From an uncultured Kangiella sp. (GTDB lineage Bacteria; Pseudomonadota; Gammaproteobacteria; Enterobacterales; Kangiellaceae): a stretch of 64,000 nucleotides of DNA. The DNA is taken from positions 186,001-250,000 of the forward strand of contig CANNDL010000004.1 in the NCBI GenBank assembly GCA_947503435.1, read 5' to 3'. Below the pieces are notes generated by a model that was not told where the DNA came from, searched no databases, and saw nothing but the letters and a program-made list of their open reading frames with translations. The position numbers were made by a program, and so were the translations under genes. Positions 27,992 to 36,866 of the stretch are shown in pieces. Numbering within the stretch: position 1 is the first letter of the stretch; every line of letters begins with the position of its first letter.

Positions 27992-28020
27992 ATTAACGAT
28001 ATACGATAAGAGAGAAAATA

Positions 28021-28530
28021 ATGGCTGAGAATGAGCAAATCCAAAACAATCAACAACAAGCAGTAGAGACTCCAGATGGTGTGCAATTAAACATTCAAAC
28101 GATTTATGCGAAAGATGTATCATTTGAATCGCCTAACTCACCAGAAATCTTTTTGGAAGAGTACAAGCCTGACATCAATGTTAATTTAGGTAATAGCGTT
28201 AAAGATTTAGAAAATGACGCTTATGCAGTTGATTTACAAGTGACTGTTACTTCAAAAGTTGGTGAGAAAACTGCATTTATCGCAGAAGTAAAATATGGTG
28301 GTGTTTTCACGGTTAAAGGTTTAGAAAGTGATATGCTTGCTCGTGTTTTACGCACCTTCTGCCCTGAGCAACTTTTCCCTTATGTACGTGAAGCAGTTTC
28401 AGAAACAATCGCTCGCGGTGGTTTCCCACGTTTCGTACTAACGCCAATTAATTTTAATGCTATGTATGAGCAAGCACTTCAACAAGCTCAACAACAGCAA
28501 GCTGGCCAACCTGCAGAAGGCCAAGCTTAA
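28021..28530 (+). CDS. secB: Protein-export chaperone SecB
   Basis: Tetrameric cytoplasmic chaperone that holds preproteins unfolded and delivers them to SecA. The conserved core shows IQTIYAKDVSFESPNSP, the LQVTVTSKV strand, FIAEVKYGGVFTVKG and CPEQLFPYVREAVSETIARGGFP. Length is 169 aa. It has a variable Gln-rich N-terminus and a longer than usual C-terminal Gln/Ala tail. The position before gpsA is conserved. Confidence 0.98.
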   Translation: MAENEQIQNNQQQAVETPDGVQLNIQTIYAKDVSFESPNSPEIFLEEYKPDINVNLGNSVKDLENDAYAVDLQVTVTSKVGEKTAFIAEVKYGGVFTVKGLESDMLARVLRTFCPEQLFPYVREAVSETIARGGFPRFVLTPINFNAMYEQALQQAQQQQAGQPAEGQA

Positions 28531-28554
28531 TTTAGGTTTTAGACTTAACTAATT

Positions 28555-29559
28555 ATGTCTGAAATTTCTACCATTGCGGTTCTTGGGGCTGGCTCCTATG
28601 GAACCGCTTTGGCTGTACTTTTGGCCAATAACGGTAAAAATGTTACCTTATGGGCTAGAAAGTCTGAGCAAGTTGCTCAAATGCAAAATGACCGAGCTAA
28701 TCAGCAATACCTTCCTGAAATTCACTTTCCAAAAAATCTATCGGTCACCGATAATTTAGAACAAGCGCTTGAAACCGTAGACGCAATTCTTATTTCGGTT
28801 CCCAGCCACGCTTTTAATAACTGTTTAAAGCAAGCAAAGCCTTATTTAAATAGCGATAGTCAATTGGTTTGGGCGAGTAAAGGCCTCGATCCTGAAACCG
28901 GTGATTTATTAGGTAATGTTCTAGAAAAAGAATTAGGTTTTCCGGTGGCGCACGCTATTTTATCTGGCCCTACGTTTGCTAAAGAAATGGCCAAAGGGAT
29001 GCCAACTGCTATAACTTTAGCCTCAAAAAATAAAAAGCTGCGTAAACGCTTTGCTAAAGCGCTACATAACGATCGCTTCCGCGTCTATTTGAGTAAAGAT
29101 GTCGTCGGCGTACAAATCGGCGGGGCTGTTAAGAATGTGATAGCCATTGGTGCAGGTATTGCCGATGGTTTAGGCTTTGGGGCTAATGCTCGAACAGCAT
29201 TAATTACCCGCGGCTTGGCCGAGATGATGAGGTTAGGTAAAGCCCTTGGCGGTAAACGCAAAACCTTTAATGGCATGGCTGGTATGGGTGATTTGGTTTT
29301 AACCTGTACTGACAATCAATCGCGCAATCGCCGTTTTGGTATGGCTTTAGGGCAAGGTAAAGAGCGAGCTGAGATCGAAAAGGAAATTGGTCAGGTAGTC
29401 GAAGGCGTGCGTAACGCTAAAGAAGTTAAAATGTTATCAGAGCGGCATAATGTGGAAATGCCTATCTGCGAAGCAATTTATCAAATTATTTATAAAGGGG
29501 TTGATCCTAAGTTAGTTGCACATCAGTTGCTAACTAGGGATTTGAAGACAGAGTCTTAA
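28555..29559 (+). CDS. gpsA: Glycerol-3-phosphate dehydrogenase [NAD(P)+]
   Basis: Makes sn-glycerol-3-phosphate from dihydroxyacetone phosphate for phospholipid synthesis. The 334-aa protein has the N-terminal Rossmann motif VLGAGSYGTALAVLLANNG, VPSHAFNNCL, the LSGPTFAKEMAKG loop, catalytic Lys in GGAVKNVIAIGAGIADGLGFG, and GMAGMGDLVLTCTDNQSRNR. It closes the yibN-grxC-secB-gpsA operon. In E. coli cysE follows; here the next gene is trmL on the opposite strand. Confidence 0.98.
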   Translation: MSEISTIAVLGAGSYGTALAVLLANNGKNVTLWARKSEQVAQMQNDRANQQYLPEIHFPKNLSVTDNLEQALETVDAILISVPSHAFNNCLKQAKPYLNSDSQLVWASKGLDPETGDLLGNVLEKELGFPVAHAILSGPTFAKEMAKGMPTAITLASKNKKLRKRFAKALHNDRFRVYLSKDVVGVQIGGAVKNVIAIGAGIADGLGFGANARTALITRGLAEMMRLGKALGGKRKTFNGMAGMGDLVLTCTDNQSRNRRFGMALGQGKERAEIEKEIGQVVEGVRNAKEVKMLSERHNVEMPICEAIYQIIYKGVDPKLVAHQLLTRDLKTES

Positions 29560-29578
29560 TAAAGATCGATTCTTTATT
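29558..29578. terminator. AT-rich dyad between convergent gpsA and trmL
   Basis: AATAAAGA / TCTTTATT, 8 perfect bases per arm, with a 5-base TCGAT loop, overlapping the last bases of gpsA. The weak AT stem makes this only a tentative bidirectional terminator. Confidence 0.4.
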
Positions 29579-29580
29579 GC

Positions 29581-30042
29581 TCACTCAAAATTGTTAAATT
29601 CAAACTGCCTCATTGCTTCATACGCCAATATCGCAACAGTATTTGATAGGTTTAAGCTACGGCTACCTTTTTTCATCGGTATGCGAAGCAAGTGCTCTGC
29701 GATATCTTCTAAAATCCAATCAGGCAATCCTCGTGTTTCAGGGCCAAAAATAAAGAAGTCATTATCTTGATATTCCACCTCATGATAATACGCCTTGCCT
29801 TTGGTGCTAAGGCCGAATAATCGACTAGGATTTTCTGAGGTTTTAAATGCCTCGTAAGACTTATGAATCTTAACATTAGCCCATTCGTGATAATCCAAGC
29901 CCGCGCGGCGCATCCGTTTATCATTAATTTCAAATCCTAATGGCTCAATCAAATGCAATTGAAAGCCCGTATTGGCGCAAAGGCGGATAATATTGCCGGT
30001 ATTCGGCGGAATTTCTGGTTCAAATAATACGATATGAAACAT
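29581..30042 (-). CDS. trmL: tRNA (cytidine(34)-2'-O)-methyltransferase TrmL
   Basis: SPOUT-family methyltransferase modifying the wobble base of tRNA-Leu isoacceptors. The 153-aa protein shows [42 protein letters not shown] and the knot-forming [17 protein letters not shown]. It overlaps the start of the ntrC-like gene's end by one base on the same strand. The ntrC-trmL neighbourhood is the same as in Pseudomonas. Confidence 0.95.
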
Positions 30043-30656
30043 CAGTGGTTATCTTCGTCTAAGTCTGTCTGCTGCCACGATTGTAGTTTACGGGTTAAAG
30101 TATTGCGACCCCAGCCGAGCAGTTTTGCTGCTTTTTGTTTATGCCCTTGGCATAAGTTTAATGCTTGTTGCACCATAAATTGCTCAAATTCCGTTTGAAT
30201 TTCAGCGAAAATCGTGGGGTTCCCTTGATGGTATTCGGCCATAAGGGTTTTATTGATTTGCTCTTGCCAAGGGGGAAGCTGTTCTGTTTTATCTTGTGCA
30301 ATGGCCTTTTGACAAATAGAGACTGCTTGGTTGAGATCAAAAGGCTTTGGTAGATAGTCAAAAGCACCTGTCTGGTGCGATTCCACGGCCATTTGGGTAT
30401 CAGTATTGGCGGTAATAATAATGACCGGCAAACTAGGGTAACGATTTTTTGCCGTTTCCATCAATTCTAAACCACTCATACCGGGCATCTGTACATCGCT
30501 AATCATGACCTTGGGCAATTGTTTGTCCAAAAGGTGTAAAGCGTCTTGTCCATTATCTGCTGCAACTACTTTAAAGCCTGCATTGCTTAAAGCTTTACTT
30601 AGCACCCATCGTATAGAGCTATCATCGTCAACTAATAAGACTAATGGCTTTTCCAC
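30042..30656 (-). CDS. NtrC-type response regulator lacking the AAA+ sigma-54 activation domain
   Basis: 204 aa, against about 470 for NtrC. Residues 1-120 are an NtrC receiver ([16 protein letters not shown]10, D11, phospho-acceptor D54, T82, K104; FDYLPKPFD as in enteric NtrC). Residues ~155-195 are the NtrC Fis-type HTH ([22 protein letters not shown]). A ~35-residue linker joins them and aligns with NtrC sequence just after the AAA+ domain (LPPW... like QPDSW...). Walker A, GAFTGA and Walker B are all missing, in frame, with no stop or frameshift. It starts with GTG directly after the ntrB stop. Locus order (glnA, DUF4124, ntrB, ntrC, trmL) supports orthology with ntrC. It should dimerise, be phosphorylated and bind DNA, but cannot remodel sigma-54 polymerase; sigma-70 regulation is inferred. 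Confidence 0.9.
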
Positions 30657-31706
30657 TTATTGCTCCGAATTCAAATTTATTGGTAAATAGCAGTGGAAGT
30701 TGGTGTTACCTGGTTGGGAATCAAATTCAATTAATCCCAAATGCTGGCGTATTAAACTTTGTGCAATTCCTAGCCCCAATCCTGAACTGTTTTTCCCACT
30801 AATCATTGGGAAAAAGATATTGGGTTGTATTTCTTTGGGAATGCCCAGGCCGTTATCATTTATAGAAATGACTATAGCTTGAGCGGCTTCATTCGCGAGT
30901 GGGTGTTCTTTTGCCATTCGAGTTTTTAATTGGATAATGGGCGAGTCAATACTTTCAGAAGCATCTAATGCGTTTTGAATAAGATTGAGTAGCACTTGAT
31001 ATATTTGCTCAGGTGCAAAATAAAAGTCTGGAAGACTGGGATCGTAATCCCTCTTAAACTCAATTTTGTGTGATGCTTTTAATTTGATAAAGTTTAATAC
31101 GTCTTCGACAATTTCGTGGATATTCATCAACACATGGCTAGCTTTCTTTTGTCCCAATAACATTCGATCAACCAGCTGTGTAAGCCGCTCGACTTCTTTA
31201 TTTACAATGTGGCTGAGATCTTTAAATTCTGAATTATCTGACATGGTCAATAATTGAGATGCGCCGGCTATTCCGCTTAGAGGGGTTTTGATTTCATGAG
31301 CAAGGTTTTTGAGGAGTTGCTGTTGGATTTGCTGCTGTCTTAGTAATTCTTGCTCTTGCTGATGTTTTTTAGATAGTGAGCTGTTTTGCCACTCAATGAG
31401 TAAGTAAGTGTGCTCTTCCAATTGCACTTTCTGTAAATGGAGCTCGACTTCAATGGTTTGTTTATTTTTAAATTGAATTTGGCGCTGATCAACTAAACGT
31501 GTTTTGTTGGATTCAAGCTTAGTTAACCACTCTCTGACAGGTAATGTTTCTGCCTCAATAAAATAATTATAGCGTTTACCGATAAGGTTTCTAGCGGTAA
31601 TACCTAGTGCTTTTTCTGCACTGGAATTTAAAAAACAAAAGCGCCCGCTTATATCTAGAACTAGTATAGCGGTGGATAGTTGCTCAAATAACGAGTGATT
31701 TATGAT
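30657..31706 (-). CDS. ntrB: Nitrogen-regulation histidine kinase NtrB (non-canonical start codon)
   Basis: Cytoplasmic PII-controlled kinase/phosphatase for NtrC. DHp with KNLAHEIKTPLSGIAGASQLL (His at residue 137), N box NLIQNALDAS, DNGLGIP, and the NtrB-specific FFPMISGKNSSGLGLGIAQSLIRQH. The first ATG/GTG/TTG-type start is a GTG at 31427, which would cut off the PAS domain. The frame stays open upstream to a TAG at 31716-31718, and those 96 codons encode a clear NtrB PAS domain (SLFEQLSTAILVLDISGRF). They contain no ATG, GTG, TTG or CTG. An AUC at 31706, 8 bases after AGG, is the start I propose; it gives 349 aa, the E. coli NtrB length. AUA at 31703 or AUU at 31712 are alternatives. Confidence 0.85.
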   Translation of the reverse strand: MINHSLFEQLSTAILVLDISGRFCFLNSSAEKALGITARNLIGKRYNYFIEAETLPVREWLTKLESNKTRLVDQRQIQFKNKQTIEVELHLQKVQLEEHTYLLIEWQNSSLSKKHQQEQELLRQQQIQQQLLKNLAHEIKTPLSGIAGASQLLTMSDNSEFKDLSHIVNKEVERLTQLVDRMLLGQKKASHVLMNIHEIVEDVLNFIKLKASHKIEFKRDYDPSLPDFYFAPEQIYQVLLNLIQNALDASESIDSPIIQLKTRMAKEHPLANEAAQAIVISINDNGLGIPKEIQPNIFFPMISGKNSSGLGLGIAQSLIRQHLGLIEFDSQPGNTNFHCYLPINLNSEQ

Positions 31707-31761
31707 AAAAATGGCCTAAAATCAATCAAAGTAAGTTGATTTTAACTGAAAATTAATAAAG

Positions 31762-31780
31762 ACGCACCATAATGGTGCGT
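31762..31780. promoter_or_regulatory. NtrC operator upstream of ntrB
   Basis: ACGCACCATAATGGTGCGT, perfect 7-base arms with a 5-base centre, matches the NtrC site pattern TGCACY-N5-GRTGCA. It lies about 56-74 bases upstream of the proposed ntrB start. A TAAAAT -10 candidate (+ strand ATTTTA, 31739-31744) would put the -35 hexamer inside the site, so bound protein should repress, like NtrC at the E. coli glnL promoter. Confidence 0.8.
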
Positions 31781-31804
31781 AGAGGATGTTTTATTCTGTC
31801 ATAA

Positions 31805-32368
31805 TCAACGACGATTATTTTGAAGTCGAGAAGTTCTCAATAGGTGAAAACTCAAGGTTTCACTGCTTTGCAGGACTTCTCCAGTTTCATCATTAATGAT
31901 TTGTGCGGTAAGTTGATGCGTGCCACGATCAATATTGGTTAATGAGAAGTAGGGTACTTTTTGATCAGAACCGGCCGTGGATCCATCCATTAATAGCCGC
32001 ACACTGTGTTTTCGAGCTAAATGAGGACTAAGGGCAACTATCACGTATAAGCTGCCATCGTTAGCGCGAATGGCTTCATCATTACTAGGTTGTTCGATGG
32101 CCAATATTTCATAGAGATTCTCCGTTTCGCTAGTATCCTCGCTTTCAACTGACTTTGCTTTGGCTTTCGGCTTCGGCATAGTCATAACGTTTTTATTAGT
32201 GTTAATAACTACTTTTTTGGAGCCGGGGACTGGTTTGTCGGTAAAGATAACACGACCATTTTTATCAATTTTTTTATATAGAACTTTCTCCTCAGATAAA
32301 GAGGGAAAGCTAAGTGACAGCAAAATAGCCGTGGCAAAAAAATAAAAAGGACTATTTTTCAACAACAT
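31805..32368 (-). CDS. DUF4124 domain-containing exported protein
   Basis: Periplasmic protein of unknown function. A signal peptide (residues ~1-25, ending SFPSLS) is followed by the DUF4124 signature VLYKKIDKNGRVIFTDKPVPGSK, a Lys/Pro linker, and a C-terminal ~90-residue beta-sandwich-like domain (RLLMDGSTAGS, FSLTNIDRGTHQLTAQIIND). I chose ATG 32368 (187 aa) because GGAG lies 6 bases upstream; longer forms would run through the glnA terminator. A DUF4124 gene between glnA and ntrB is also seen in Pseudomonas, so the location is conserved, but a link to nitrogen control is unproven. Confidence 0.85.
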   Translation of the reverse strand: MLLKNSPFYFFATAILLSLSFPSLSEEKVLYKKIDKNGRVIFTDKPVPGSKKVVINTNKNVMTMPKPKAKAKSVESEDTSETENLYEILAIEQPSNDEAIRANDGSLYVIVALSPHLARKHSVRLLMDGSTAGSDQKVPYFSLTNIDRGTHQLTAQIINDETGEVLQSSETLSFHLLRTSRLQNNRR

Positions 32369-32427
32369 AAGATACTCCATATCATAGATATTATTAGTAT
32401 CGGTGAGAATGAATGAGCTGTCAAAAC

Positions 32428-32452
32428 AAAAAAGCCCAGCGGTTGCTGGGCT
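32428..32452 (-). terminator. Rho-independent terminator of glnA
   Basis: GCCCAGC / GCTGGGC stem with a 4-base loop; on the minus strand it is followed by a T-run (AAAAAA on +). It sits 47 bases after the glnA stop. Confidence 0.92.
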
Positions 32453-32498
32453 TCGATAAGTGGTTTCGTTGCCCGTAATTTGGGGCAAAATCAGATAC

Positions 32499-33908
32499 TT
32501 ATAGGCTGTAGTACATTTCAAACTCAATTGGATGAGTGGTCATGTTTAACTGAGCCACTTCATCACGTTTAAGTTGAATGTAAGCATCCAGCATATCATC
32601 TGAGAAAACACCGCCACGCGTCAAGAATTCACGATCTGCGTCTAAAGCATCTAACGCTTGCTCAAGAGAAGAGGCAACCGTTGGGATTTCTGCTGCTTCT
32701 TCTGCTGGTAAGTCATACAAATCTTTATCCATAGCGTCGCCAGGATGAATCTTGTTTTGGATACCGTCTAGGCCAGCCATCATCATCGCTGCAAACGCTA
32801 AGTAAGGGTTTGCCATTGGATCAGGGAAGCGCGCTTCAATACGACGACCTTTAACGCTTGGCACGTGAGGGATACGAATTGATGCAGAACGGTTACGCGC
32901 AGAGTAAGCTAACATTACTGGAGCTTCAAAACCTGGAACTAAGCGCTTGTATGAGTTAGTTGAAGGGTTAGTAATGGCATTCAATGCACGAGCGTGCTTA
33001 ATTACGCCACCAATGTAATAAAGCGCTTCTTCGGATAAACCACCGTATTTGTCTCCAGCAAAGATATTATTACCATCTTTCGATAAAGACGTATGGATGT
33101 GCATACCAGTGCCGTTGTCACCAACGATAGGTTTAGGCATGAATGTAGCAGTTTTGCCGTAAGCGTGAGCAACATTGTGAGTTACGTACTTTAAAATCTG
33201 AACTTCATCGGCCTTTTTCACTAAAGTATTAAACTTAGTAGCGATTTCGTTTTGACCAGCAGTTGCTACTTCGTGGTGATGAGCTTCTACTACTAAGCCC
33301 ATTTCTTCCATCACTAAACACATTTGTGAACGGATATCTTGTGATGAATCAACTGGTGGAACTGGGAAGTAACCGCCTTTTACGCGTGGGCGATGACCGG
33401 TATTACCATCTTCATAGCTCTTGTCTGAATTCCAAGCTGCTTCTGGGTCATCAATTTTAAACATAGAGCCGCTCATGTCAGTTTTAAACTTAACGTCTTC
33501 AAACATGAAGAATTCTGGCTCAGGACCAAAAAAGGCGGTATCTGCAATACCAGTTGACTTTAAATATTCTTCTGCGCGTTTCGCAACTGAACGAGGATCA
33601 CGATCATAGCCCGTCATTGTAGAAGGTTCTAGGATGTCACAACGTAAATTTAAAGTTGGATCTTCAAAGAAAGGGTCCATAACTGCGGTAGAAGCATCAG
33701 GCATCAATACCATGTCAGACTCATTGATACCTTTCCAACCAGCGATTGAAGAGCCATCAAACATCTTTCCGTCAGTTAAGAAATCTTCATCGACTTGGTG
33801 GGCAGGAATAGTAACGTGTTGTTCTTTACCTTTCGTATCGGTAAAACGTAAATCAACGAATCGAACTTCATTTTCTTCAAGTAAGGCTAAAACATTGTTG
33901 GCCGACAT
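32499..33908 (-). CDS. glnA: Glutamine synthetase, type I (GSI-beta)
   Basis: ATP-dependent synthesis of glutamine from glutamate and ammonia; dodecameric cytoplasmic enzyme. [54 protein letters not shown] and [21 protein letters not shown] are all standard. Y398 (KDLYDLP) is the adenylylation site, so GlnE control is expected. The start at 33908 is set by GGAG upstream and gives 469 aa, the E. coli length; a frame extension to 34001 would run into the promoter. Upstream lie a sigma-70-like promoter and an NtrC operator. Confidence 0.98.
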
Positions 33909-33956
33909 GCTTTTCTCCAATTTATAAGGGTTGGATATCACAAAATTTATGAAGGC

Positions 33957-33987
33957 ATTATACTGATTTGTATTAATGAAATGTAAA
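33957..33987 (-). promoter_or_regulatory. Predicted sigma-70 promoter of glnA
   Basis: On the minus strand TTTACA (33982-33987) precedes a perfect TATAAT (33957-33962) by 19 bases, or TTACAT by 18. Predicted start near 33950. No TGGCAC-N5-TTGC (sigma-54) element is seen between here and the gene or the NtrC operator. Confidence 0.6.
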
Positions 33988-34013
33988 GAATTAGTCATCA
34001 TCCAAGTGATTTA

Positions 34014-34032
34014 GCGCACCAAAATGGTGCGC
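34014..34032. promoter_or_regulatory. NtrC operator upstream of glnA
   Basis: GCGCACCAAAATGGTGCGC has perfect 7-base arms and contains the core CACCAAAATGGTG of strong enteric NtrC sites. Its centre (34023) is about 73 bases upstream of the predicted glnA start point, about seven helical turns. The 360-base glnA/TonB-receptor gap (33909-34268) also holds the two divergent promoters and a structured leader, and otherwise nothing recognisable. Confidence 0.85.
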
Positions 34033-34129
34033 ATACGGCAATGAATACATAAATGTGTAAAAATTCTGGGCCAGACAGAAGATAAAACAAAAAGTTCATT
34101 AACAAAATCTAACAAAATCGTAAAATTTG

Positions 34130-34157
34130 TTGACCTTTTGTCTTTTTCTGTGATACT
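34130..34157 (+). promoter_or_regulatory. Predicted promoter of the TonB-dependent receptor
   Basis: TTGACC (34130-34135), 16-base spacer, GATACT (34152-34157) with an extended -10 TGT directly upstream. Gives a ~105-base 5' leader before the receptor ATG. Confidence 0.55.
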
Positions 34158-34165
34158 TATCTACT

Positions 34166-34224
34166 TTCCAGGGGCCTTGGACCTTGTTGTCGCTTATGGT
34201 TAGCAACAAATCTGAAGCCTGGAA
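34166..34224 (+). other. Structured 5' leader of the TonB receptor mRNA
   Basis: TTCCAGG (34166-34172) pairs with CCTGGAA (34218-34224); inside lies a second stem TTGTTG (34184-34189) / CAACAA (34204-34209). No known riboswitch class is recognised and no T-run follows, so attenuation is not implied. It could stabilise a highly expressed mRNA or control access to the ribosome-binding site. Confidence 0.45.
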
Positions 34225-34268
34225 TTAATAAAAAAGTAAATTTACTAAACTACTATAGGTAGGATTTT

Positions 34269-36866
34269 ATGACTAACAAGACAATGATAGCTAAAGCTGT
34301 AAAAGCAGCTTTATTCGGCGGTTTAGCTGCTTCTATCGCTATCGCTTCTCCAGCAACTTTCGCTGCTGAAGAAGACGAAGGTGAAGAGAATGTAGTTGTA
34401 ACTACTGGTTCTCGCCTTAAGCGTTCTGACGTTGAAGGTGCACTTCCAGTAACAATTATTGACCGCGAACAAATCGAATTATCTGGTGAGAGCAACGCTG
34501 CAGACTTTTTACGTAGCTTAACTTTCAACAGTGCTGGTTCTTTCCGTCCACAATCTGGTAGCTCTGCTCAAGGTACAGCTTCAATCAGTTTACGTGGTAT
34601 TGGTTCTGACCGTACATTGGTATTAATCGACGGTCGTCGTTTACCAAAATCAGGTTCTACTGGTTCATCTCAAGATTTGAACACTATCCCAATGGGCGCA
34701 ATCGAGCGTATCGAAGTACTAACAGATGGTGCTTCTGCGGTATACGGTTCTGACGCTATTGGTGGTGTAATCAACGTAATTTTACGTTCAGATTACGAAG
34801 GCGCTGAAATCATGATAGGTCGTGCTGGTGTAAGCATTCCTACAGATGGCGGTGACCGTGAAGAAGGCTCTATCGTATTCGGCGCAGCTGGTGATCGTTC
34901 AAGCATCATCGCTGGTCTTTCTTGGAACGACCGTGACATTATTTTCGCACGTGCTTTCCCATGGAACACTCCTGGTGGCTCTATCTACGGTAACAGCTTC
35001 ACAACTATTACTGGCGGTTTTGACGATTTTAACTGGACTTCTATTACTGATGGTAATGGAAACAATGCTTGTGATTTTGCAGGTACTGGCTTCTACACTA
35101 TTGGTAACTCAGCAGCGGTTAACCCAGCGCAAGATCGTTGTGCATATGATTTCACTTTAGTAAGTGCTGATGAAGCATCTCTAAAGAACAAAGGTATGTT
35201 TGTTAAAGCTTCACACCAAGTAAATGATGATTGGGAAGTTTACATGGACGCTCGTGTAACTCGTACTGAATCTTTCGGTCGTTACGCTCCAGTTCCAGAT
35301 TCAAGCTACTTCTCAACTCCGTTAACGGCTACAAGCCCTAACAACCCAACTAACCCAGCTGGTAACGTTTATGACGCTACTTTAGGCTTAGCTCCTCAAG
35401 CAGTTAACTGGTGGCACCGTTTTGATGCACTAGGTAATCGTGATAGCTACGTTACTAACAATATGAATGACGTTCTTATTGGCGCAACTGGTAACTGGGC
35501 AGACATCGATTGGGACTTTGGTTACCGTCGTACAGACAACAAAACTGATGATGTAGGTCGTAACTACTTGCTACGTTCAGCTGCGGCTAACTTAATCGAG
35601 TCAGGCGCTTACAACTTAGCTAACCCATATGCTAACCCTGAAAATGTATTAAACTCTATGCGTATCACTGTATACCGTGAGTCTAACTTCGATTTCGAAG
35701 AAGCATTTGCAACAGGTCAATTCGACTTATTTGACATGGATGGCGGCACAGCTGCAATGTTAGTAGGTGTTGAATACCGTAAAGAAATCTACTCTGACCA
35801 ATACGACCCTCAATCAGAAGCTGGTCAAGTAGGTGGTTCTGCAGGTAACTCTGCTGGTGGTACTCGTGACGTACGTGTACTTGCTGCGGAAGCTGCATTC
35901 CCATTCACTGATAACTTAGAAATGAGCGTAGCGGTTCGTTACGATGATTATTCTGATTTCGGTGATAACACTTCTCCAAAAGTATCTTTCCGTTGGCAGC
36001 CAATGGACGAGTTAACTTTGCGTGCTTCTTATGGCCAAGGTTTCCGCGCTCCATCTTTACCTGAGTTAACTCAGAAGCCTTCGTTCAGTGCTACTTCAGT
36101 ATCTGATCCACAAACTTGTTTGGCTCAAGGTCAACCAGCTAACTGTTCAGTACAGATCAACGACACTATCCAAGCTAACCCAGGTTTAGGTGCGGAAGAG
36201 TCAGATCAATACTCTATCGGTGCAGCTTGGCAGCCAACTGATTGGATGAACGTTACCGTTGATTACAGCAACATCGAAATCAATAACCAAATCGATCAAA
36301 TCACTGCACAAGAGATCATTAACGCTCAAATTACTGGTGTACCAGTTCCTCCGGGCTTAAGCTGTCAACGTGCTCCATCTGGTGCTATTACTCAGTGTTT
36401 CACTGGTTTCGGTAACCAAGGTGTACTTGAAGTTGATCAATTCGACGTTAACTTACGTATGAACTTTGATTTATGGGGCGGTCAATTGATGTCTCAAACT
36501 CAATGGTCTCGCGTATTAGGTTACAGCTTCGACGGTGGTCAAAGCATCGTTCGTAACGCTGGCTTACCAAAAGATCGTATGGCTGTAGCGAATACTTTCA
36601 GCATCAACGATTTTGTGTTTGCTTATAACTTGAACTTAATCGGTGAAAATGGTCAAGGTACTAATCGTGCTCCGACTTGGATCACTCATGATTTACAAGT
36701 TAACTACAACACTCCTTGGGATGGTCGTATCACTGTAGGTGCACGTAACATTGGTGAGAAATTCCCACCAATCGGTTTAGGTGCTCCAGGTTCACGTGAC
36801 TATGACTTCGGCTTATATGATGGTTACGGTCGTACTACTTACGTACGTTACACGCAAACTTTCTAA
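34269..36866 (+). CDS. TonB-dependent outer-membrane receptor
   Basis: 865-aa outer-membrane receptor. Signal peptide (~1-32, ATFA/AEED), a TonB-box-like segment ENVVVTTGSR, plug domain (~45-175: PVTIIDREQIEL, ISLRGIGSDRTLVLIDGRRLP, VLTDGASAVYGSDAIGGVINVIL) and a long beta barrel ending in the OMP C-terminal Phe (RYTQTF). The ATQ-x-SAVYG-type plug and 'LRGIGSDRTLVLIDGRR' segment place it with receptors often used for peptides or oligosaccharides in marine bacteria, not clearly siderophores; the substrate is unknown. Strong use of GGT, CGT, AAC and TTA codons suggests very high expression. It stands alone between its own promoter and terminator. Confidence 0.95.
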   Translation: MTNKTMIAKAVKAALFGGLAASIAIASPATFAAEEDEGEENVVVTTGSRLKRSDVEGALPVTIIDREQIELSGESNAADFLRSLTFNSAGSFRPQSGSSAQGTASISLRGIGSDRTLVLIDGRRLPKSGSTGSSQDLNTIPMGAIERIEVLTDGASAVYGSDAIGGVINVILRSDYEGAEIMIGRAGVSIPTDGGDREEGSIVFGAAGDRSSIIAGLSWNDRDIIFARAFPWNTPGGSIYGNSFTTITGGFDDFNWTSITDGNGNNACDFAGTGFYTIGNSAAVNPAQDRCAYDFTLVSADEASLKNKGMFVKASHQVNDDWEVYMDARVTRTESFGRYAPVPDSSYFSTPLTATSPNNPTNPAGNVYDATLGLAPQAVNWWHRFDALGNRDSYVTNNMNDVLIGATGNWADIDWDFGYRRTDNKTDDVGRNYLLRSAAANLIESGAYNLANPYANPENVLNSMRITVYRESNFDFEEAFATGQFDLFDMDGGTAAMLVGVEYRKEIYSDQYDPQSEAGQVGGSAGNSAGGTRDVRVLAAEAAFPFTDNLEMSVAVRYDDYSDFGDNTSPKVSFRWQPMDELTLRASYGQGFRAPSLPELTQKPSFSATSVSDPQTCLAQGQPANCSVQINDTIQANPGLGAEESDQYSIGAAWQPTDWMNVTVDYSNIEINNQIDQITAQEIINAQITGVPVPPGLSCQRAPSGAITQCFTGFGNQGVLEVDQFDVNLRMNFDLWGGQLMSQTQWSRVLGYSFDGGQSIVRNAGLPKDRMAVANTFSINDFVFAYNLNLIGENGQGTNRAPTWITHDLQVNYNTPWDGRITVGARNIGEKFPPIGLGAPGSRDYDFGLYDGYGRTTYVRYTQTF

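Follow-up and report, generated by a model that had tools for sequence, protein, structure and literature searches.

By descent, the short ntrC product of Kangiella is an NtrC, and the criteria tested place it outside the enhancer-binding proteins. NtrC serves as the textbook example of a sigma-54 activator, and the AAA+ ring is generally regarded as its central feature. In the window, the stretch of 64,000 nucleotides of Kangiella DNA analyzed here, the gene encodes a receiver and the NtrC DNA-binding domain joined by a short linker, without the AAA+ domain. We consider it rather likely that this protein acts as a phosphorylation-controlled sigma-70 activator of glnA and also autoregulates ntrBC. 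Kangiella would thus hold a nitrogen master switch minus its ATP-burning motor, kept genus-wide, with a target promoter apparently rebuilt for the ordinary transcription machinery.

Architecture and locus of the short NtrC

The original prediction had placed the gene in the ntrC slot, after ntrB and before trmL. This placement holds, as the adjoining kinase passes the NtrB cut-off and the neighborhood is conserved in Kangiella (Table 1). The predicted composition, a receiver plus an NtrC-type Fis HTH in 204 amino acids with no AAA+ domain, agrees with the Pfam, NCBIfam, and PDB matches. The ORF opens with a GTG start codon. Pfam assigns residues 6-112 to Response_reg (E 2.2e-30) and residues 156-192 to HTH_8 (E 3.1e-13), and a scan of the whole protein gave no match to Sigma54_activat. 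The NCBIfam NR(I) models cover the protein as two separate stretches, with scores far above those of every other model listed; their whole-protein cut-offs are missed (195.7 versus 620 bits and 193.8 versus 558.6 bits), the AAA+ part being absent. The nearest PDB match of the receiver is the NtrC receiver (1dc7 group, E 2.4e-41), and that of residues 139-192 is the NtrC DNA-binding domain, whose structure is solved (1ntc, E 3e-10). In an alignment with seven full-length relatives, the gap runs from a few residues past the receiver to the conserved Trp that opens the NtrC C-terminal region, which bears out the clean in-frame excision proposed earlier.

Table 1. Features around the short ntrC gene (positions in the window)
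Feature	Position	Strand	Remarks
trmL (SpoU methylase family)	29581..30042	-	conserved neighbor downstream of short ntrC
short ntrC	30042..30656	-	receiver (aa 6-112), short linker, NtrC DNA-binding domain (HTH_8, aa 156-192); without AAA+ domain
ntrB (PAS-HisKA-HATPase), cognate kinase	30657..31712	-	PRK11073, 245 versus cut-off 240 (NCBIfam)
NtrC box CGCACCATAATGGTGCG upstream of ntrB	31763..31779	.	center at about -39 relative to a TAAAAT -10
DUF4124-like gene between glnA and ntrB	31805..32527	-	Pfam 21.5 bits, just below the cut-off of 22
glnA (glutamine synthetase), inferred main target	32499..33908	-	likely start is an internal ATG (MSANNVL...); ORF open to 34001
TATAAT, predicted -10 element of glnA	33957..33962	-	52 bp after the box
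NtrC box CGCACCAAAATGGTGCG upstream of glnA	34015..34031	.	center at about -73 relative to the predicted sigma-70 start

The protein has what is expected of an NtrC ortholog, namely the slot after ntrB in a glnA-ntrB-ntrC locus and a phospho-Asp receiver with the DNA-binding domain. An enhancer-binding protein, in contrast, has an AAA+ domain with Walker A and B motifs and GAFTGA, for which the 202 to 220 amino acids of the Kangiella proteins leave no room (19 of 19; Pfam and alignment), and a -24/-12 promoter at its main target, which is missing from glnA in all 19. Within the locus, trmL also lies directly 3' of full-length ntrC in several outgroup loci, and an Rfam scan of positions 28000 to 36000 gave no match. 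At the 5' end of ntrB (31427-31712, minus strand), no ATG, GTG, or TTG precedes the PAS region, while an open frame with PAS-like sequence extends back to an ATT at 31712; the gene may use a rare start codon or may lack the PAS part.

A search for rpoN and for any full-length NtrC had been suggested with the original prediction. The genome from which the window comes (2.36 Mb, estimated completeness 99.97%) carries rpoN, and none of its four clear AAA+ activators is a full-length NtrC, all scoring below the cut-off (TIGR01818, 210 to 384 versus 558.6 bits; three weaker matches were left out). The next-best match to the short NtrC in this genome, after its own gene, reaches an E value of only 7.6e-18.

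Conservation in Kangiella and the absence of rpoN

A search of 20 Kangiella genomes found a short ntrC of 202 to 220 codons at the same locus in 19 of them; no such locus was found in the 20th (G002), which is only 55% complete. The order secB-gpsA-trmL-ntrC-ntrB-(DUF4124-like)-glnA is kept in the 18 Kangiella loci fetched, save that one stops before glnA (L124; its glnA lies on another contig, L199) and one gave no DUF4124-like match (L119). PII was found in 19 of the 20 genomes. The comparison with related loci that had been called for covered 20 loci, drawn from the order and from the family's other genera; in every one, NtrC is full length (464 to 480 aa) and carries Walker A together with a loop reading GAFTGA or GSFTGA. 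In a tree of glnA, ntrB, and trmL, the 19 Kangiella form one clade with a support of 100 and a long stem. At the level of these genome comparisons, we consider it shown that the AAA+ domain was excised before the sampled Kangiella diverged and that the short form has been conserved since.

An assembly error or a recent disruption of a normal ntrC, either of which would have overturned the original prediction, has a negligible probability: we found no point in its favor, and the same architecture and neighborhood recur in 19 Kangiella genomes, some of them on single contigs, which rules it out as an explanation of the short gene. The short ntrC is also under strong purifying selection, with dN/dS values of 0.017, 0.048, and 0.052 in the only three Kangiella pairs free of synonymous saturation. 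D10, D11, D54, T82, and K104, the receiver residues singled out earlier, are invariant in the 19 sequences, as is most of the recognition helix.

These data also bear on whether the protein is a decaying remnant of NtrC with little function, which we regard as very improbable. The loss of a domain and the small number of boxes per genome would be in keeping with decay, and another NtrC-superfamily activator, which we take to be PilR-like, lacks GAFTGA in 13 of 13 Kangiella examined, whether or not rpoN is present (L004, L234-L244, and L247). The low dN/dS values, the invariant phosphorylation site and largely invariant recognition helix, and the persistence of the boxes while the neighboring spacers diverged argue against it.

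Matches to rpoN were obtained in 12 of the 20 Kangiella genomes and not in the other eight, of which seven are good assemblies, two of them single-contig. The good genomes that lack it (7 of 18) form one clade with a support of 100 in the tree of glnA, ntrB, and trmL. The short NtrC, both boxes, and the -10 elements persist in this clade, so action through sigma-54 is unlikely in those cells. A PEP-CTERM-type activator has lost GAFTGA in all seven good rpoN-less genomes (L217-L223) and retains it in all 12 that bear rpoN (L001, L206-L215, and L225); in this set, L001 and L217 pass the PEP_resp_reg cut-off and the others were matched by similarity only. We suggest that rpoN would have become easier to lose because glnA, freed from sigma-54, no longer needed it.

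Sigma-54 activation could in principle survive as a two-protein system, in which a separate AAA+ protein would work in trans with the DNA-binding and receiver parts supplied by the short NtrC. The 12 genomes that retain rpoN and a GAFTGA-bearing activator could house such a system. With a good -24/-12 element absent from all 19 Kangiella glnA promoters, and with the short gene and its boxes kept where rpoN is absent, we consider it highly unlikely.

Promoters of glnA and ntrB

The two palindromes named in the original prediction are NtrC-type boxes (Table 1), and the promoters around them carry most of the case for a sigma-70 activator. On a -24/-12 score whose weights sum to 25 points, a strong sigma-54 element (22 to 25 points) precedes glnA in all 15 outgroup loci that hold the glnA start (of the 20 fetched); the 19 Kangiella promoters (L199 included) reach 15 to 19 points. 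In the window, no good element lies within 420 bp upstream of the glnA start codon. Even a looser sigma-54 pattern falls within 150 bp of the box in just 1 of 18 Kangiella promoters (L130), where the matching stretch includes the -10. The boxes differ as well. Each of the 19 Kangiella glnA promoters has a single box, which follows the strict pattern in 17 and carries one mismatch in two (G010 and G018). In the outgroups, 14 of 15 promoters (all but L140) carry between one and three boxes, counted at 9 of 12 matches or better and placed farther upstream; two or three are found in 12 of the 15, and a box of the strict pattern in one (L150).

An exact TATAAT follows the Kangiella glnA box at 51 to 53 bp in 18 of the 19 promoters and at 41 bp, about one helical turn less, in the other (L119). 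In mononucleotide shuffles, the chance of an exact TATAAT at 51 to 53 bp is about 0.004 per promoter, a figure to be read with the -10 calls as consensus matches and the related Kangiella genomes as nonindependent. Between the three clades, the sequence separating box and -10 has diverged to a mean identity of 0.30 to 0.37 while its length was kept (17 genomes; L119 and G008 left out). Matches to a -35 element are no better than in shuffled sequence (mean of 3.3 versus 3.0 mismatches, 18 promoters), the window's own promoter being an exception with a fair -35 (TTTACA, 19-bp spacer). The L119 promoter also holds TATTAT at -71 and -74, and two others (L125 and L127) have a second TATAAT nearer the box, which would place the box at -54. 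We consider it shown, from these promoter alignments, that glnA changed from a sigma-54 to a sigma-70 layout in Kangiella. As expected for class I activation, the site keeps a fixed, helix-phased distance from the -10, as far as predicted -10 elements tell, and its position, together with the missing -35, is what one finds in class I sigma-70 promoters that depend on an activator.

We propose a plausible course of events, in which the short NtrC most probably behaves as a conventional class I activator does. Under nitrogen shortage, NtrB would phosphorylate D54, and the dimer so modified would occupy the lone palindrome that lies some 73 bp before the glnA start. From there it would bring in the standard sigma-70 RNA polymerase, without ATP hydrolysis and probably via the alpha-CTD, at a promoter whose -35 is missing in most genomes. 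At ntrB, the box at about -39 would take the place of the -35 element and provide autoregulation, either positive (in the manner of a class II activator) or negative.

The ntrB box is present in 19 of 19 Kangiella, and a -10 with at most one mismatch follows it by 16 to 18 bp in 18 of them (5% by chance in shuffles). Its position would fit class II activation or repression alike. Some ntrB boxes may double as terminator hairpins; a mere terminator hairpin is not a general explanation, as at least six T residues occur in the next eight bases in only 6 of the 19.

The strict box occurs at 45 places in the 20 Kangiella genomes: 36 at glnA or ntrB (the one-mismatch glnA boxes of G010 and G018 are not counted), three before amtB, and six elsewhere (five inside ORFs and one between ORFs). 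As a control, the reversed pattern was counted and gave a single occurrence apiece in three genomes. The three amtB-type boxes (G010, G011, and G018) precede an ammonium transporter gene that adjoins a PII gene. In two of these three promoters (L196 and L197), a second NtrC-box-like palindrome ends about 23 to 24 bp before the strict box. Judged by these counts, the short NtrC appears to govern a small regulon.

The original prediction had left a choice between a sigma-70 regulator and a pure repressor, and this reading is supported. Of the two, the glnA promoter favors activation, with its box at about -73, an exact -10, and a -35 no better than shuffled; the ntrB box would suit either. At sigma-70 promoters such as glnAp1 and glnL of E. 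coli, NtrC acts negatively. A short NtrC that retained only this older role would shut down or tune glnA and ntrBC, and we judge this unlikely, although it deserves some weight. The ntrB box overlaps the -35 position, and TATAAT lies within the first glnA box of G065, another lineage with an AAA+-less NtrC, as repression would have it. The Kangiella glnA box, however, is clear of the -10, and a promoter with so poor a -35 would have little basal activity left to repress.

Other short NtrCs and comparison with known systems

When 370 genomes of the class were scanned with a Kangiella profile, the matches listed included at least three further short NtrCs (G371 and G293, both of genus g227, and G065), each encoded after glnA and ntrB; with at most eight candidates scored per genome, this count is a lower bound. 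In a scan of 397 genomes of the phylum, no further short NtrC appeared among the matches listed, where a short form could come to light only in the 141 genomes that matched at E 1e-40. Kangiella, g227, and G065 are set apart by full-length relatives or by long branches in trees of glnA plus ntrB and of NtrC, so we count at least three excisions of an apparently rare architecture. Within g227, the short G371 groups with full-length genomes in the glnA plus ntrB tree (support of 45 and 78) and with short ones in the NtrC tree (88); we count one excision there.

The family of G371 (41 genomes) offers a view of the steps. A complete short gene is present in 17 genomes and a cut copy in one, all within the 31 genomes of g227. 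Full-length NtrC is found in three genomes of g227 and in 8 of the 10 that belong to two sister genera, and no clear NtrC was seen in the remaining 12 genomes of the family. No glnA promoter in this family has a -24/-12 element above 19 of 25 points, whether NtrC is short (14 of 14 scorable) or full length (6 of 6 scorable; L271, at a contig end, and L282, with a run of N, were left out). A box followed by TACAAT precedes glnA in 13 of 14 genomes with a short NtrC and in five of six with a full-length one. In the short-NtrC genomes, TACAAT lies 66 to 67 bp after the box in 10 and 56 to 57 bp in three, a step of about one turn. A TATAAT or TAAAAT is also present 18 bp past the box in six of these 14 promoters; taken as the -10, it would set the box at -39 instead.

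In the same family, G449 encodes an NtrC of 451 aa (L281, from about 4521, plus strand) that keeps Walker A and has lost GAFTGA and Walker B. It adjoins the short NtrCs in the NtrC tree (support of 84) and not in the weakly supported glnA plus ntrB tree. G449 is a possible intermediate, with a decayed AAA+ domain in a genus where relatives excised theirs. The family suggests an order in which the promoter switched first, the idle ATPase then decayed, and excision followed. No intermediate NtrC was found in Kangiella, so the order cannot be read there. G065 (1.7 Mb, no rpoN match) is the sole genome of its order examined. Before its glnA lie two NtrC-like palindromes (L260 3526-3572), the first with TATAAT inside it, like a repressor operator, and its short NtrC may be a repressor.

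The genus-wide architecture, the at least three apparent origins, the accompanying promoter switch, and the persistence where rpoN is absent are additions of the present analysis to the original prediction. We see an even chance that they reflect a repeatable path by which NtrC crossed from sigma-54 to sigma-70 through outright loss of its ATPase, at least three times. On this path, glnA would first gain a sigma-70 promoter that carries one NtrC box; erosion of the unused AAA+ domain (as in G449) and its excision would follow, and rpoN would finally become losable. What was an ATP-driven enhancer-binding protein would have become, without leaving its native locus, an uncomplicated class I activator. 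Repeated excision in nature, seen alongside intact and decayed domains and a promoter that switched to match, opens two questions to testing: by what route a regulator passes from one kind of bacterial RNA polymerase to the other, unrelated kind, and what leads a lineage to give up sigma-54. The short protein could also serve biochemistry as a minimal NtrC under presumed phosphorylation control.

Literature searches, confined to open-access sources, found no AAA+-less NtrC. The enterobacterial NtrC (NR(I)) has a box consensus of the GCACC-N5-GGTGC type. It shares with the Kangiella protein the slot after ntrB in the glnA locus, the receiver phosphorylation site, the DNA-binding domain, and the type of box, whereas Kangiella lacks the AAA+ domain and the sigma-54 element at glnA and has a single box per glnA promoter. 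The ActR/PrrA/RegA family is laid out as a receiver plus a Fis HTH, and the two-domain layout and similar size are shared. The short NtrC is not a member, as it scores 64.4 bits against a cut-off of 250 (NF033791), far under its scores with the NtrC models, and its locus and boxes are those of NtrC.

Descent from sigma-54 activators with loss of the sigma-54 link is common to Kangiella NtrC and to TyrR, HupR, DhaR, and VpsR, activator paralogs with a lost sigma-54 interaction or a defective GAFTGA; unlike in Kangiella, loss of the whole AAA+ domain is not described for them in the available portion of PMC3162934. Closest in kind are the GAFTGA-less NtrCs of Rhodobacter capsulatus and Caulobacter, likewise NtrC orthologs that left sigma-54 for sigma-70 promoters. 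According to the accessible text of PMC10274813, the former needs ATP binding and the latter needs the AAA+ domain and its Walker residues, and the sigma-54-independent NtrCs reported so far still depend on that domain. Both retain and need the AAA+ domain by that account (PMC10274813), whereas the NtrC of Kangiella has none.
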